The notes beneath the pieces were generated by a model. It saw only the letters and a program-made list of their open reading frames with translations. It was not told the origin of the DNA and searched no databases. A stretch of 47,026 nucleotides of DNA. Origin: Bacteroidales bacterium. Its GTDB lineage: Bacteria; Bacteroidota; Bacteroidia; Bacteroidales; UBA932. The stretch spans positions 1-47,026 of the forward strand of contig JAFZYD010000090.1 of NCBI GenBank assembly GCA_017616475.1, read 5' to 3'. The translations under genes were made by a program, and so were the position numbers. Of the stretch, positions 23,251-46,892 are shown in pieces; position 1 is the stretch's first letter, and each line of letters opens with the position of its first letter.

Positions 23251-24300
23251 CTACTTATCATTCTCCGGGCGCAGGGCGCGGACGGCCTTGCCGGCCTGCC
23301 ACATCTCGCTATCGCGCATCTCCTTGAGTTCTGCCTCAAGCCCGGCGCGGTAGCCTTCCTTACCGTTGGAGTCGATGGAAATCTGGGCCTCGTTGCCGCT
23401 GGCTACGCTCTTGTAGAGGTCCTCGAACACCGGCTTGGTGGCGTCGCGGAACTTCTTCCACCAATCCAGCGCGCCTCGCTGTGCGGTTGTGGAGCAGTTG
23501 GCGTACATCCAGTCCATACCGTTTTCGCCCACGAGCGGCAGAAGGCTCTGGGAAAGTTCCTCCACGGTCTCGTTGAAGGCCTCGCTGGGGGTGTGGCCGT
23601 TGGCGCGCAGCACGTCGTATTGCGCTGCAAAGATACCCTGGATGGCACCCATAAGGGTACCGCGCTCACCGGTCAGGTCGCTGTAGGTCTCGCGCTTGAA
23701 GGTGGTCTCGAACAGGTAGCCGCTGCCGATACCCACGCCGAGGGCGATGGTGCGGTCGTATGCTTTGCCGGTAGCGTCCTGCCATATGGCGTAGGAAGAG
23801 TTGATTCCGCGGCCCTGCAGGAACAGGCGGCGCAGCGATGTGCCGCTTCCCTTGGGGGCGCACATAATCACGTCTACATCTGCCGGCGGCACGATGCCGG
23901 TGCGTTCGTTATAGGTGATGGCGAAGCCGTGTGAGAAATAGAGCGCCTTGCCGGAGGTAAGGTGCTTCTTGACCACGGGCCAGGCCTGAATCTGGCCGGC
24001 GTCACTCAGCAGGAATTCTATTATGGTAGCCTTCTGGCAAGCCTCTTCAATCTCAAAGAGGGTCTCGCCGGGTACCCAACCGTCGCTGATGGCCTTGTCC
24101 CAGCTCTTGGAGCCCTTGCGCTGGCCCACAATCACCTTGAAGCCATTGTCGCGCAGGTTCAGCGACTGGCCGGGGCCCTGTACGCCATAGCCCAGCACTG
24201 CTATTGTTTCGTTTGCCAGAACGGCTTTCGCTTTTTCGAGAGGGAATTCGGCGCGGGTCACAACCTGTTCCTCGACACCGCCAAAATTGATCTTTGCCAT
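23251..24300 (-). CDS. ilvC: Ketol-acid reductoisomerase
   Basis: 349 residues, cytosolic. The N-terminal NADP(H) Rossmann domain carries GYGVQGPGQSLNLRDNG and GQRKGSKSWDKA; metal and substrate residues lie in the C-terminal helical domain (EETYSDLTGERGTLMG-like region and WMYANCSTTAQRGALDWW). It converts acetolactate or acetohydroxybutyrate to the dihydroxy acid by alkyl migration and reduction, the second common step of valine and isoleucine synthesis. Last gene of the ilvD-ilvB-ilvN-ilvC unit, 5 bp after ilvN. Regulation is expected to come from the attenuator before ilvD. Confidence 0.97.
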   Translation of the reverse strand: MAKINFGGVEEQVVTRAEFPLEKAKAVLANETIAVLGYGVQGPGQSLNLRDNGFKVIVGQRKGSKSWDKAISDGWVPGETLFEIEEACQKATIIEFLLSDAGQIQAWPVVKKHLTSGKALYFSHGFAITYNERTGIVPPADVDVIMCAPKGSGTSLRRLFLQGRGINSSYAIWQDATGKAYDRTIALGVGIGSGYLFETTFKRETYSDLTGERGTLMGAIQGIFAAQYDVLRANGHTPSEAFNETVEELSQSLLPLVGENGMDWMYANCSTTAQRGALDWWKKFRDATKPVFEDLYKSVASGNEAQISIDSNGKEGYRAGLEAELKEMRDSEMWQAGKAVRALRPENDK

Positions 24301-24305
24301 TGTTC

Positions 24306-24560
24306 TTATTTTTTAGGATTAAATGCTTTGGTATAATAGATTTCAGAAATATCCACAAAATTGTTCGCCTGGTTCATTATGCGCTTCATAATGTCCTCTT
24401 CGGGGCAAAGGCATATAAGGTTTATAACCGCCATATTGTTTTCCGTGGCGGTGAAGGTCACGGTGAGCACCGGCAGGTTCTTCACTATGAACAGCGAAGT
24501 TATGCGGTTGAGAATGTCCAGACGGTTGCGCACCAGCGCGTCCACTACATATTTATCCAT
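24306..24560 (-). CDS. ilvN: Acetolactate synthase small (regulatory) subunit, short form
   Basis: 84 residues forming one ACT-like domain (NRLDILNRITSLFIVKNLPVL...). The regulatory subunit binds end-product amino acids and raises activity of the large subunit. Many bacterial small subunits run to 160-190 residues with a second C-terminal domain; this one stops after the first domain, like the enterobacterial IlvN/IlvM type. It starts 1 bp after the ilvB stop, so translation is probably coupled. The small size is not a frameshift product as far as I can see. Confidence 0.85.
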   Translation of the reverse strand: MDKYVVDALVRNRLDILNRITSLFIVKNLPVLTVTFTATENNMAVINLICLCPEEDIMKRIMNQANNFVDISEIYYTKAFNPKK

Positions 24561-24561
24561 A

Positions 24562-26304
24562 TTACTTAATTCTTATGTCGTCCAGGCTCTTGCCGCCGGG
24601 AATCATAGGGAATACGTTGCTTTCGGCATCTACATAGGCGTCCAGCATAAACGGACCCTTGGAAGCCGCCATCTCCTCCACGGCGTTCTCTATGTCGGCG
24701 GGGGAGCTGCAGCAGCGGTATTTTATTTTGTATGCCTTGCAAATAAGTTCAAAATCGGGGTTTACCAGGCGCGTCTGGGAGAAGCGTTTGTCGTAGAAGA
24801 GATCCTGCCACTGGCGCACCATCCCCAAAAAGGCGTTGTTGAGCAGCACAATCTTTATGTCGATGCCGGCCTGCAGAATTGTGCCGAGCTCCTCCATAGT
24901 CATCTGGAAGCCGCCGTCGCCGCAAATAAGCACCACCTGGGCGTCCGGTTTGCCGCATTTGGCACCGATGGCCGCAGGCAGGCCAAAGCCCATAGTGCCC
25001 AGGCCGCCGGAGGTGATCCATCCCGATTTGCGGGTCAGCTTGAGGTAGCGGGCGGCGAACATCTGGTTCTGGCCGACGTCGGTCACCAGCACCACATTTT
25101 CGCCGAATTCGGTGTTCTTGCGCTCCGAAACGCGCTCTATGTAATGGTCGTTTATGGCATTGACCACTTGCGCCATATTAAGCGAAATGCTGTTCAGCTT
25201 GGGGATTATTACCTTTTCGCGCTCGAAGTCATATTGGTCGTAGCCCCACTTGCGCCAGGCCTCACGGTCCTTGAAAACCAACTCCTTGTAGATGCGCTCC
25301 AGCACAGTCTTGGCATCGCCGTGAATCTTTATATCTACCGTGACGTTCTTGTTGAACTCGGTCTTGTCTATGTCTATGTGAATTATCTTGGCTTTGGGGG
25401 CATATTTGGACACGCGGCCAGTGACGCGGTCGGAGAAGCGCATACCCACTGCCAGAATAACGTCGGCCTCCTGCGTCATTTTGTTGGCCGGGATGTTGCC
25501 GTGCATACCCACCATACCGATGTAGTAGTGGTCGTGGAAGTTCATACAACTGCGGCCCAGAAGGGTGCAGGCAACAGGTATGCAGGCTTTGTTGGCGCAT
25601 TTGGCAAGAATGTTTTCCGCACCGGAAATAACTACTCCCTGGCCCGCTATTATGAGCGGCCGCTCCGCTTCGTTTAGCAGTTTTATGGCCTCTTCTATGC
25701 GGCGGGATATCTTTTCGCTTTCGTCCGGGCGCACTACCTGGACCATCTGGGAGAGGGCGTATTCCTTGTCGTAGAAATAGTCGCACATTTCTTCCTGCGC
25801 ATTCTTGGTGAGGCTTATCAGCACCGGACCCGGACGGTCGCTGCGGGCAATGTGGAACGCCTGCGGCACCACTATAGCTATTTCGGAAGCCTTGGTAATC
25901 TGGTAGTTCCACTTGGTGATGGGGGTGGTGATGCCCAGCATGTCGGCCTCCTGGAAAAAGTTGGTGCCCAGTTTGTCCGCCTGGACCTGCGCTGTGATGC
26001 AGACAATGGGGGTGGAGTCCATCATAGCGTCCGCGATGCCGGTCACAAAGTTGGTGGCGCCGGGGCCGCTGGTGGCCAGGCAAACGCCCACTTTGCCAGA
26101 GGCGCGGGCATAACCCTCTGCGGCGTGCACCGCCCCCTGCTCGTGGCGCACCAGAATGTGGCGCAGCCGGTCGGTATAGTCGTAAAGGCGGTTGTAGATG
26201 GGAATTATGGAGCCGCCGGGGTAGCCGAACACGGTCTCTATCCCTTCTGCAAGTATCGATTCAATGAGCGCATCCGCGCCCGATATGTGTTTCGTTTTCT
26301 GCAT
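24562..26304 (-). CDS. ilvB: Acetolactate synthase large (catalytic) subunit
   Basis: 580 residues, normal length. ThDP enzyme with the PYR domain (GYPGGSIIPIYNRLYD, HEQGAVHAAEGYARASGK), a central FAD-type domain, and the PP domain with the GDGGFQM...LNN cofactor motif. It joins pyruvate with pyruvate or 2-oxobutyrate, the first common step of valine, leucine and isoleucine synthesis. It lies 3 bp after ilvD and 1 bp before ilvN. Confidence 0.96.
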   Translation of the reverse strand: MQKTKHISGADALIESILAEGIETVFGYPGGSIIPIYNRLYDYTDRLRHILVRHEQGAVHAAEGYARASGKVGVCLATSGPGATNFVTGIADAMMDSTPIVCITAQVQADKLGTNFFQEADMLGITTPITKWNYQITKASEIAIVVPQAFHIARSDRPGPVLISLTKNAQEEMCDYFYDKEYALSQMVQVVRPDESEKISRRIEEAIKLLNEAERPLIIAGQGVVISGAENILAKCANKACIPVACTLLGRSCMNFHDHYYIGMVGMHGNIPANKMTQEADVILAVGMRFSDRVTGRVSKYAPKAKIIHIDIDKTEFNKNVTVDIKIHGDAKTVLERIYKELVFKDREAWRKWGYDQYDFEREKVIIPKLNSISLNMAQVVNAINDHYIERVSERKNTEFGENVVLVTDVGQNQMFAARYLKLTRKSGWITSGGLGTMGFGLPAAIGAKCGKPDAQVVLICGDGGFQMTMEELGTILQAGIDIKIVLLNNAFLGMVRQWQDLFYDKRFSQTRLVNPDFELICKAYKIKYRCCSSPADIENAVEEMAASKGPFMLDAYVDAESNVFPMIPGGKSLDDIRIK

Positions 26305-26307
26305 AGC

Positions 26308-28107
26308 TTACTTGATGATTCTTACACCGCCCTTGTCGGCGCTGTCTGCCAGCGCTGCGTAGGCTTGCAGGGCTTTACTTACCTCACGGTTGCGGTTGGC
26401 CGGCTTGTATTCTGTAATGGCCTCGCGGCGCGCTGCCAGCTCCTCTTCGCTTATGTCCAGGTTGAGGGTGCGGCCCGGCACGTCTATGCGGATAATATCT
26501 CCGTCCTTGATTAAGGCTATGGGACCTTTATTTGCGGCCTCGGGCGAAATGTGTCCAATCGAAAGGCCGCTGGTGCCGCCCGAGAAGCGGCCGTCTGTAA
26601 TAAGTGCACACTTCTGGCCCAGATGTTTGCTCTTAAGGAACGAAGTGGGGTAGAGCATCTCCTGCATACCCGGTCCGCCTTTGGGCCCTTCGTATCGGAT
26701 AACCACCACGTCGCCCTCCTTCACTTTGTCGCCCAGAATGCCGTCCACGGCATCTTCCTGGCTCTCGAACACCACCGCTTTGCCGGTGAATTTGAGTATC
26801 TCCTCCGGCACGCCGGCGGTCTTCACAATGCAGCCGTCCGGGGCTATGTTGCCGTAGAGCACGGCAATTCCTCCGTCCTTCATATAGGCGTGCTCGATGT
26901 CGCGGATGCAGCCCCCTTCGCGGTCGGTGTCAAAATCCTTGTACATCTTTTTGCAGCGGCCCATCTCGGTGGTGCGTTTGCCGCCCGGGGCGGAGAGATA
27001 TATAGAATCTTTGCCTGCGTTGAACACGGTGTTGCCGTACATCGCCTCGCGCAGGGTAGGGTAATCTACCCGGAGGGTGCCGGAATCCAGCAATCCCTTC
27101 TTTTCCAGCTCCATAAGTATGCCCATCACGCCGCCGGCGCGGTTCACGTCCTGCACGTGGTCGTGGCCGTTTGGCGCCACCTTGCATATTACGGGAATCT
27201 CGCGGGAGAGGCGGTCTACATCGGCCATAGTGAAATCGACTCCCGCTTCATGGGCTATGGCCAGCAGGTGCAGCACGGTGTTGGTGCTGCCGCCCATAGC
27301 TATGTCCAGCTTCATTGCGTTCTCGAACGCCGCCTTGGTGGCGATGGAGCGGGGGAGTACGTCGGTGTTGTCTTTCTTATAATATTCGTTGGCCAGCTTC
27401 ACTATAAGTTGGGCGCCTTTTATAAAGAGTTTTTTGCGGTTGGCGTGGGTGGCGAGTATTGTGCCGTTGCCTACGGGGGCCATACCCAGCGCCTCGGAGA
27501 GGCAGTTCATACTGTTTGCGGTGAACATACCGGAGCAGCAGCCGCAGGTGGGACACCCTTTCTCTTCGTACTTATTGAGCGTCCAGCGGCTCACGCTTTT
27601 GTCGCCGCCTGCCACCATAACGTCTACCAGGTCGCAGTCCTGTCCCTTTACGTTGCCCGCCTCCATTGGGCCGCCCGACACAAAAACCGCCGGGATGTTG
27701 AGCCTCATTGCGGCCATCAGCATACCGGGGGTTATTTTGTCGCAGTTGGATATGCAAATCATTGCATCGGCGCAGTGAGCGTTGCACATATATTCCACGC
27801 TGTCGGCAATAATTTCGCGGGAGGGGAGGCTGTAGAGCATACCGCCGTGCCCCATTGCTATGCCGTCGTCTATGGCTATTGTGTTGAACTCGGCAGCGAA
27901 GCAACCCTGCCTTTCGATCTCCTTTTTGATGAGTTGGCCAACTTCGTGCAGATGGACGTGGCCCGGCACGAACTGGGTGAAGGAGTTCACTATAGCGATG
28001 ATGGGTTTGCCTGTCTGGCGGCTTTTCATACCGTTCGCCTTCCAAAGGGCGCGGGCACCGGCCATTTCACGGCCTTCAAAAGTTTTGCTGCTGCGCAGTT
28101 TTGCCAT
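26308..28107 (-). CDS. ilvD: Dihydroxy-acid dehydratase
   Basis: 599 residues. Iron-sulfur cysteines are visible in [12 protein letters not shown] and [32 protein letters not shown] and GRFSGGTSG are further family hallmarks. It dehydrates dihydroxy acids to 2-oxoisovalerate and 2-oxo-3-methylvalerate. First structural gene of the ilv operon: its ATG follows the leader terminator by 13 nt, so read-through of that terminator decides expression of all four genes. Confidence 0.97.
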
Positions 28108-28120
28108 AATTAAAGCTCTT

Positions 28121-28162
28121 AAATAAAAATATTGGACCTCACTTTTTTAACGTGAAATCCAA
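28121..28162 (-). terminator. Attenuator terminator hairpin before ilvD
   Basis: On the minus strand TTGGATTTCAC (28162-28152) pairs over all 11 positions, two of them G-U, with GTGAGGTCCAA (28142-28132) around a 9-nt A-rich loop. The U-rich run TATTTTTATTT follows. This is an intrinsic terminator between leader peptide and ilvD. Confidence 0.82.
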
Positions 28163-28206
28163 CAAGTACTTATAATTTGTAATCTCAAACTACCTGGTGG
28201 ATTTCA
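28153..28206 (-). promoter_or_regulatory. Antiterminator alternative to the ilv leader terminator
   Basis: Minus-strand TGAAATCCA (28206-28198), starting 2 nt after the leader stop codon, is complementary to TGGATTTCA (28161-28153), which is also the 5' arm of the terminator. The two pairings exclude each other. A ribosome that reaches the leader stop would cover the first arm and let the terminator form. A ribosome stalled earlier on Leu/Val/Ile codons would leave it free for antitermination. Confidence 0.75.
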
Positions 28207-28208
28207 AA

Positions 28209-28283
28209 CTACACGATAAGGACGCCTAGCAGGACGCCCACGACAAGCACTAATACGAGGATAGATGACATTACGAGGTTCAT
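28209..28283 (-). CDS. ilv operon leader peptide, 24 aa, Leu/Val/Ile-rich
   Basis: A 25-codon frame: begins MNLVMSSILV, ends GVLLGVLIV then TAG. It has 8 Val, 7 Leu and 2 Ile among 24 residues, so 17 of 24 are branched-chain. It sits between a well-formed promoter and a terminator/antiterminator pair ahead of ilvD. This is the classical layout of translation-coupled attenuation; shortage of charged tRNA for Val, Leu or Ile would stall ribosomes and raise ilv expression. The -7 box ends 11 nt before the ATG, so the 5' leader is very short. Confidence 0.85.
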   Translation of the reverse strand: MNLVMSSILVLVLVVGVLLGVLIV

Positions 28284-28294
28284 TTTTTACGTTG

Positions 28295-28327
28295 CAAATG
28301 TAATTTTTTTTATTATATTATTGCAAA
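28295..28327 (-). promoter_or_regulatory. Promoter of the ilv leader and operon (TTTGC-n20-TACATTTG)
   Basis: On the minus strand TTTGC (28327-28323) and TACATTTG (28302-28295) are spaced by 20 nt, matching the Bacteroidetes primary sigma pattern (TTTG, 19-21 nt, TAnnTTTG). It is the best-formed promoter in the window. The predicted start is about 28289, just ahead of the leader ATG at 28283. Confidence 0.75.
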
Positions 28328-45491: not shown

Positions 45492-46892
45492 ATGATAGAC
45501 AAGATCGTATCCACATTGAACAACATCATCTGGAGCCCCGCTCTGGTGGTGTTGCTGGTGGGTGCCGGTCTGTATTTCTCCTTCCGGACCAGGTTCGTTC
45601 AGGTTCGGCGGTTCGGTCTTATGCTCCGCAGTCTGTTTGCGCCCAAAGAAAAGTCAGAAGACGGCTCCAAGCACGGCATTTCGTCTTTCGAGGCCTTCTG
45701 CGTGGCTCTATCGGGCCGTGTCGGCACAGGCAACATTGTGGGCGTCGCTACTGCAATTGCCCTTGGCGGCCCGGGGGCGGTATTCTGGATGTGGCTGATA
45801 GCATTCTTCGGAGCCTCCACTGCCTTCGTGGAATCCACTCTGGCCCAAAAGTACAAGTTCCACCACCCTACCGGATTCCGCGGCGGCCCTGCCAGTTACA
45901 TAGAGAAAGGGCTCAAACTCCCCTGGCTGGGAGTTGTCTTTTCCATTTGCTGTATCATAGGCTACGGCCTGTTTCTGGCCCCGGTTCAGTCCAACGGAAT
46001 GACGGGGGCGATAGGCAATTCATTCGGTATCAATCCCCTCTACAGCGGCTTGGCATTGGCATTCGTACTGGCATTGGTAATTATCGGCGGTATCAAGAGC
46101 ATTTCCCGGGTAGCGTCGATAGTAACGCCGTTTATGGCGCTGGGCTATCTGGTCATCACCGTAATAGTCATCGCCCACCATATAGATAGTGTGCCTCACG
46201 TACTCAAGATGATTGTAACCGGCGCCTTCGGCATCCAGCCGGTGGCGGGCGGCATCCTTGGATCTACCATTATGATGGGAGTAAAGCGCGGCATTTTTTC
46301 CAATGAGGCGGGCGAAGGCGGCGGCGCCATCGTTTCAGCATCGGCGGCCGTATCACACCCCGCCAAGCAGGGACTGGCGCAGGCCTTCAGCGTGTATGTC
46401 GACACACTTCTGATCTGTACCGCCACGGCGCTGATGATTCTCTGTTCCGGCAACTACAACATTCTGGACGCCAAGACCGGCGAGATGTTGGTTTCGTACA
46501 ACGCCGCCCTGGGAAATAACTACGTCGGCTATACGCAGGCGGCCGTGGACAGCGTGCTGAGCGGCTTCGGCAGCACGTTCGTGAGCATAGCGATGATCTT
46601 CTTCGTATTCACCACCATTATGGCCGACTACTTTTACGGAGAGTCCAGCATTATGCACATCTTCGAGCACAAGAAAGGCAATGCCAAGGCAGAGAAGGTA
46701 GCGATATGGGTATTCCGCCTGGCGCTGCTGGGAATGGTTGTTTTCGGTGCCACGCGCGAAGCCAACGTAATATGGCAACTGGGCGATGTGGGTGTCGGCC
46801 TCACCGCCTGGATCAATGTGATTGCGCTGCTGCTCCTCTGTCCAGAAGCAGTGCGTCTGCTGAAAGATTACGAAAACAGTCTTAAAGAGTAG
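45492..46892 (+). CDS. Alanine/glycine:cation symporter (AGCS) family protein, module copy 2
   Basis: 466 residues, same hydrophobic pattern and hallmarks as the protein at 30786-32183 (GTGNIVGVATAIALGG, GAVFWMWLIAF, GGPASYIEKGL, KRGIFSNEAGEGGGA). It probably imports alanine or glycine with Na+. It lies 4 bp after the CarboxypepD_reg-like gene and probably shares its promoter. Its last 11 bases overlap the end of a convergent nucleoside phosphorylase gene. Differences from copy 1 cluster in loops (PTGFRGG against ETGYRGG) and at the C-terminus. Confidence 0.93.
   Translation: MIDKIVSTLNNIIWSPALVVLLVGAGLYFSFRTRFVQVRRFGLMLRSLFAPKEKSEDGSKHGISSFEAFCVALSGRVGTGNIVGVATAIALGGPGAVFWMWLIAFFGASTAFVESTLAQKYKFHHPTGFRGGPASYIEKGLKLPWLGVVFSICCIIGYGLFLAPVQSNGMTGAIGNSFGINPLYSGLALAFVLALVIIGGIKSISRVASIVTPFMALGYLVITVIVIAHHIDSVPHVLKMIVTGAFGIQPVAGGILGSTIMMGVKRGIFSNEAGEGGGAIVSASAAVSHPAKQGLAQAFSVYVDTLLICTATALMILCSGNYNILDAKTGEMLVSYNAALGNNYVGYTQAAVDSVLSGFGSTFVSIAMIFFVFTTIMADYFYGESSIMHIFEHKKGNAKAEKVAIWVFRLALLGMVVFGATREANVIWQLGDVGVGLTAWINVIALLLLCPEAVRLLKDYENSLKE

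Follow-up and report, generated by a model that had tools for sequence, protein, structure and literature searches.

Ribosome-mediated attenuators are known from the ilvGMEDA, ilvB, leu, his, and trp operons of E. coli. These systems resemble the locus described here in having a leader rich in the amino acids of the pathway, a terminator, and a competing antiterminator, with the position of the ribosome acting as the sensor, a role that we propose for the present locus as well. In the classic trp and his attenuators, a fourth segment pairs with the antiterminator strand and an untranslated leader terminates, whereas no such pairing was detectable at the present locus, which also differs from the E. 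coli attenuators in belonging to another phylum and in having its leader almost at the 5′ end. In Staphylococcus aureus, a Leu-rich leader (with Ile) and a terminator lie directly before ilvD of an ilv-leu operon, and the activity of the promoter was reported to be higher when Leu was limiting or the leader was mutated (PMC5794164). The antiterminator is proposed in that study to sequester the terminator poly-U after refolding of upstream stems (PMC5794164), whereas at the present locus the leader-adjacent strand, arm 1, would directly take the terminator 5′ strand or loop. In Actinobacteria, PMC1262725 describes trp leaders with complementary triples, that is, three alternating segments as proposed here, and ILV (Ile, Leu, Val) open reading frames with terminators before ilvB; the mode of action at ilvB is termed unclear, and codon changes in S. 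coelicolor were without effect. For Bacteroides thetaiotaomicron, the main text of PMC7366714 describes sORFs in long 5′ UTRs as reminiscent of attenuation leader peptides, for example BT_4401, and does not contain the term "ilv". The main text of PMC2965389, a survey by premature terminators, contains neither "Bacteroid" nor "ilv".

The literature searched, which lay mostly outside subscription journals, yielded no description of attenuation ahead of an ilv operon in Bacteroidota. A survey of attenuation in bacteria by Lopatovskaya et al. (2010) reportedly may include Bacteroidetes, so that priority is unsure. The kind of regulation is known (his/trp/ilv-type attenuation), and within our sample the module is widespread in the order, occurring in approximately two thirds of the regions. 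In the window, by which we mean the whole analyzed stretch of 47,026 nucleotides from a Bacteroidales bacterium, the DNA upstream of ilvD very probably encodes a ribosome-mediated transcription attenuator that would sense charged Val, Leu, and Ile tRNA and control ilvD-ilvB-ilvN-ilvC. Both the termination and the response to starvation are what we infer from the sequence.

Organization of the ilvD upstream region

The switch region lies between ilvD (ending its 5′ side at 28107) and the divergent leuA (28373). It consists of a promoter, a leader, arm 1, a hairpin, and a T-rich tract, all on the minus strand and 5′ of ilvD-ilvB-ilvN-ilvC. The predicted first regulated gene is ilvD (26308–28107, minus strand), encoding dihydroxy-acid dehydratase (NCBIfam NF009103, 1005.7 bits; TIGR00110, 766.7 bits). 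It is followed on the same strand, with gaps of 1–5 bases between the genes, by ilvB for the acetolactate synthase large subunit (24562–26304; TIGR00118, 673.9 bits), an ilvN-like gene for a short small subunit of 84 aa (24306–24560; NF008864, E value 3.4e-05, below its cut-off), and ilvC for ketol-acid reductoisomerase (23251–24300; TIGR00465, 320.8 bits). The genes directly 3′ of the leader thus form a branched-chain amino acid (BCAA) biosynthetic operon, and the pathway matches the leader codons. The ilvN-like product covers the first half of the family profile only and is very short for an acetolactate synthase small subunit. When the window was scanned for further leader-plus-terminator modules behind TAnnTTTG, none was convincing besides the one at ilvD; an open reading frame at 45748–45804, tried as a second module, looks like chance.

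The promoter (28295–28327, minus strand) was read from the sequence as TTTG at 28327–28324, a 21-nt spacer, and TACATTTG at 28302–28295, which we take to be the Bacteroidota −33/−7 promoter form. The site at 28295–28327 was not among the predictions of a sigma-70 promoter scan of the window. TAnnTTTG was present in all 10 aligned ilvD upstream regions (the window and its 9 nearest relatives), including those lacking an attenuator. The distance from TACATTTG to the leader ATG is 11 nt; translation initiation in Bacteroidota is not known to be Shine-Dalgarno-driven. The leader open reading frame (28209–28283, minus strand) has 24 codons, encodes MNLVMSSILVLVLVVGVLLGVLIV, and ends with the stop codon TAG at 28211–28209; its identification relies on the reading frame itself and on ILV-rich leaders in relatives. 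It contains 8 Val, 7 Leu, and 2 Ile codons (17 of 24), and these continue up to the last codon, unlike the average leader of the relatives, which has a gap before the stop.

Competing hairpins

Arm 1, the predicted 5′ strand of the antiterminator (TGAAATCCA; 28198–28206, minus strand), starts 2 nt past the leader stop. It is perfectly reverse-complementary to arm 2 (TGGATTTCA; 28153–28161, minus strand), and 36 nt separate the two arms. Folds and alignment indicated that arm 2 is a shared strand, whose partner is either arm 1 or the 3′ strand of the terminator (arm 3). An extension of arm 1, CAGGTA (28191–28196, minus strand), pairs in the predicted fold with TACTTG at 28168–28163. The putative intrinsic terminator (28130–28164, minus strand) is a hairpin of 13 pairs with a 9-nt loop and −15.7 kcal/mol, its 5′ strand at 28164–28152 and its 3′ strand at 28142–28130; besides the fold, two-sided pair changes in relatives point to it. 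The T-rich tract TTTTTATTT (28121–28129, minus strand), read from the sequence, follows directly.

The fold of 28210–28120 was better than all of 200 shuffles (z −3.9), and for the longer stretch 28300–28100 one of 200 shuffles was equally good (z −3.0). The duplex of arm 1 with the terminator in the window reached p 0.025 against shuffles. Before arm 3 is transcribed, the optimum was a single antiterminator hairpin of −18.3 kcal/mol, formed by the 9 bp and CAGGTA/TACTTG; in the full stretch with arm 3, the terminator state was preferred (−22.3 versus −18.3 kcal/mol). The two states are close in energy, and since the antiterminator is optimal early and the terminator at rest, they have the ordering that an attenuator requires. 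What the earlier note had reported for this region was borne out on the minus strand: a promoter ahead of leader and ilvD, which proved to be a Bacteroidota-type element; a 24-residue leader with 17 Leu/Val/Ile codons, whose coordinates and counts were right; an arm beginning 2 nt after the leader stop; and two mutually exclusive pairings before ilvD, with arm 2 common to both. Its 9-bp antiterminator is exact over these 9 bp, but the predicted helix is longer by the CAGGTA/TACTTG pairs.

A protector segment was sought by calculating the duplex between leader and arm 1. Its mean was −10.93, versus −11.05 in codon shuffles, with p ≤ 0.05 in 5 of 60 loci and p 0.14 in the window. The fold of 28210–28120 had also suggested that arm 1 might form a hairpin with the adjoining spacer, which was rejected as no better than shuffles (p ≤ 0.05 in 1 of 60 loci; window p 0.25). 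Since no protector pairing was detectable, the three-segment reading holds, and the earlier suggestion of a form simpler than the four-segment one came through this direct test. The protector pairing of the classic four-segment subtype (trp/his) was not found, and a transcript with an untranslated leader should consequently read through.

On this basis, we propose the following mechanism. Transcription would start just 3′ of TACATTTG, and a ribosome behind RNA polymerase would translate the ILV-rich leader. When BCAA are ample, the ribosome would reach the stop and its leading edge would cover arm 1, leaving arm 2 and arm 3 to pair as the terminator, so that transcription would end before ilvD. 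A shortage of Val, Leu, or Ile would instead stall the ribosome in the ILV run and leave arm 1 exposed; arm 1 would capture arm 2 before RNA polymerase has reached arm 3, and the operon would be read.

Leaders and terminators in related genomes

Related loci were collected through matches to ilvD, which were obtained for 54 of the 149 family genomes and 88 of the 198 order genomes, and the best 80 named contigs were taken. Once identical copies had been removed, the near set contained 92 distinct regions upstream of ilvD, that of the window among them; the further set comprised 98 distinct regions, 20 from the family and the rest from the order, less 3 identical copies. A leader was defined as an ATG reading frame starting at most 330 nt from ilvD, 14–60 aa long, with at least 6 and at least 40% ILV residues and a stop at least 45 nt before ilvD. 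Such leaders were found in 62 of 92 near regions. By comparison, the reverse complement gave 5, and 20 dinucleotide shuffles gave 5.35 on average and never more than 9. Of the 98 further regions, 67 had such a leader. No leader was found by this definition in 30 of 92 near and 31 of 98 further regions; some of these showed a non-ATG leader by eye (L077, L090) and are still counted as misses. The peptides (14–59 aa) are nearly all different in sequence, for example MILNGNISIIISLLVVVVVVISIIVP and MKLLNTVLVVVVVVVLKNIE, and ILV richness is their common trait. Approximately 90 bases before ilvD in L100, a terminator-like hairpin and a T run stand just 3′ of a promoter-like TACTTTTG, and an ILV leader was not seen; this locus is possibly a half-lost attenuator.

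After the leader, a hairpin of −10 kcal/mol or lower with a T tract was present in 59 of 62 near loci and 66 of 67 further loci, compared with 5 and 2, respectively, when each locus was shuffled once; the T tract was part of the terminator search criterion. This frequency of strong hairpins followed by T tracts bears on the possibility that the main target of the leader and hairpins is ilvD translation or the stability of the mRNA, with premature termination minor. Leader-coupled translational control exists in other bacteria, and the hairpin of the window ends 22 nt before the ilvD start, the corresponding distances being 14 nt for L031 and 8 nt for L063, close enough for an effect on initiation to be possible. 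In L060 and L068, however, it ends approximately 75–80 nt before ilvD, too far to cover the start, and together with the T tracts this makes a mainly translational or stability effect very improbable compared with attenuation of transcription.

Nearest relatives of the window were compared in an alignment and in a 40-row tree. The earlier note had proposed looking for the leader and pairings in close relatives, and both are conserved in L031, L037, L039, and L040, and far beyond. This holds for only part of the close relatives: six others (L032, L033, L034, L035, L036, and L038), 90.6–91.2% identical in IlvD, lack the leader and hairpins altogether at approximately 230 bases before ilvD. In the alignment of the window and its 9 nearest relatives, these six keep TAnnTTTG, which stands directly before ilvD and is therefore most simply the ilvD promoter. 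In the tree, the six rows form one group with support 84/86, which is nested in a starred clade of ten, the window among them. Presence of the module changes twice on the whole tree, the second change being L056, in which ilvD directly follows another reading frame. We read the absence of the module in the six close relatives as a probable loss. This naturally module-less clade offers a ready comparison.

Conservation of the pairings and position of arm 1

The stretch from the stop codon onward paired with the 5′ part of the terminator better than shuffles (p ≤ 0.05) in 44 of 59 near and 43 of 67 further loci, falling short of p 0.05 in the other 15 and 24; relatedness of the loci is only roughly controlled in these comparative counts. 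Paired with its own partner, the arm gave a mean of −13.8 kcal/mol versus −9.3 kcal/mol when partners were swapped between loci; of 60 loci, 51 had their own partner among the best third and 6 had it below the middle. An ungapped-helix test for the antiterminator gave p < 0.05 in only 29 of 60 loci because many antiterminators contain an interior loop, and duplex energies were used instead. The arms themselves differ among groups. The window and its nearest kin have the pair TGAAATCC/GGATTTCA. Candidatus Cryptobacteroides (L065) and its neighbours in the tree have GGAATCC/GGATTCC, with most of arm 2 situated in the terminator loop. Many other loci have GAGAAAGG/CCTTTCTC, in which the stop codon TGA can belong to the arm. 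The arm sequences thus appear to turn over as pairs, with complementarity kept.

Covariation was analyzed in an alignment of five sequences (the window, L031, L037, L039, and L040). Two-sided changes were found at 3 terminator pairs and 2 antiterminator pairs. Cells were paired in 96.9% for the terminator and 98.0% for the antiterminator, with slid-partner controls at most 52.3% and 62.0%, respectively. The excess of covariation over shuffles was modest (17 of 500 shuffles were as high for the terminator and 42 of 500 for the antiterminator), as expected with five sequences.

We further examined where the control codons lie relative to arm 1. The share of ILV codons was 0.63–0.85 at positions −4 to −15 in the near set and 0.60–0.85 at −5 to −15 in the order set, dropping over the last 3–4 codons before the stop to 0.19 and 0.13, respectively, at the last codon; the leaders had been selected on ILV content, and the profile along the leader had not been selected. 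In a search for arm 1 that began 36 nt before the stop, the distance from the last codon of the ILV run to arm 1 was 9–20 nt in 94 of 126 loci. When the run positions were permuted inside groups, 58.6 loci on average and at most 75 showed this distance, with none of 2000 tries as high; the effect is partly forced because an arm within the frame excludes ILV codons there, and the loci are also related. With one locus per distinct leader end, the count was 85 of 109 (permuted mean 50.7, maximum 64). Arm 1 lies within the leader frame, before the stop, in several loci (e.g., L127, L125, L128, and L162). When the arm was searched from the stop onward only, its place tracked the ILV run among near loci (rho −0.50), and no such relation was seen for the order set (rho 0.04, p 0.73). 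Once positions inside the frame were admitted, the arm tracked the run in both sets (rho −0.42 and −0.49). Arm 1 began inside the stop codon in 47 of 67 loci of the order set (shuffled 0.21), an enrichment that the near set did not show (16 of 59; shuffled 0.24).

The leading edge of a ribosome reaches approximately 12–15 nt. Selection seems to hold the distance from control codons to arm 1 near this reach, with the stop codon secondary. The earlier note had placed the arm 2 nt after the leader stop, which is right for the window; across relatives, the place of the stop varies and the codon–arm distance is held.

This persistence also bears on the possibility that the hairpins are switched directly by a ligand or protein (a riboswitch, a T-box, or an RNA-binding regulator) and that the leader reading frame is incidental. 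Switching between terminator and antiterminator would by itself fit such control. However, the RNA sequence turns over while the ILV codons and their spacing persist, and a search of Rfam, which includes the T-box family, gave no match that reached the gathering score, either for the window or for 9 relatives; we regard direct switching as highly unlikely. That the reading frame encodes a functional small hydrophobic membrane protein, with the hairpin merely its terminator and ilvD on another promoter, is still less probable, for although the peptide is hydrophobic and a terminator follows it, the peptides share little but ILV richness, that of the window has no Pfam or NCBIfam match (weak evidence at 24 aa), the leader-adjacent arm keeps a complementarity to the terminator that a plain terminator does not need, and the module-less relatives have the same promoter element directly before ilvD.

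Ribosome-mediated attenuation remains the preferred reading for the window. Tentatively, and with slightly more doubt than confidence, we suggest that the loci may belong to an undescribed class of three-segment, default-on ilvD attenuators that occupies much of Bacteroidales and may extend further, with an arm placed at leading-edge reach from the control codons, often taking in or preceding the stop. If such a class exists, ribosomes would closely follow RNA polymerase in Bacteroidota, and the operon would also be switched on whenever initiation at the leader failed. Leader-peptide attenuation needs ribosomes near RNA polymerase, so the broad set of leaders makes transcription–translation coupling in Bacteroidota testable. 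The proposed attenuator would also provide a testable BCAA sensor for gut and rumen Bacteroidales.

The signal of leader and terminator weakens beyond the order. In other orders of the same class, a leader was found in 3 of 20 regions, among which L260 looks real and L256 chance-like. L260 has the ILV leader MYPLVILLSFIILIGFTK, with its TGA stop within TGAGGCACT, which is complementary to AGTGCCTCA of the terminator; here the attenuator design may reach beyond the order. Among 26 loci from another class of the phylum, an ILV-rich reading frame was present in 15 and a strong terminator in only 3 (2 when each was shuffled once). Ten loci of genus g208 in that class (L219, L224, L225, L228, L229, L233, L235, L236, L239, and L241) have short leaders ending in Leu before the stop, followed by a common CCCAAGTCC ... 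CTTCGGGA pattern, mostly with a weak hairpin and some T; this is perhaps a separate attenuator. Long ILV-rich leaders of 44–59 aa stand 5′ of ilvD in L215, L217, L218, L226, and L231. Complementary arms resembling GGTTAACCC or GGTCAATCCC come after these leaders; a clear T tract is mostly missing, and the arms could act on translation.
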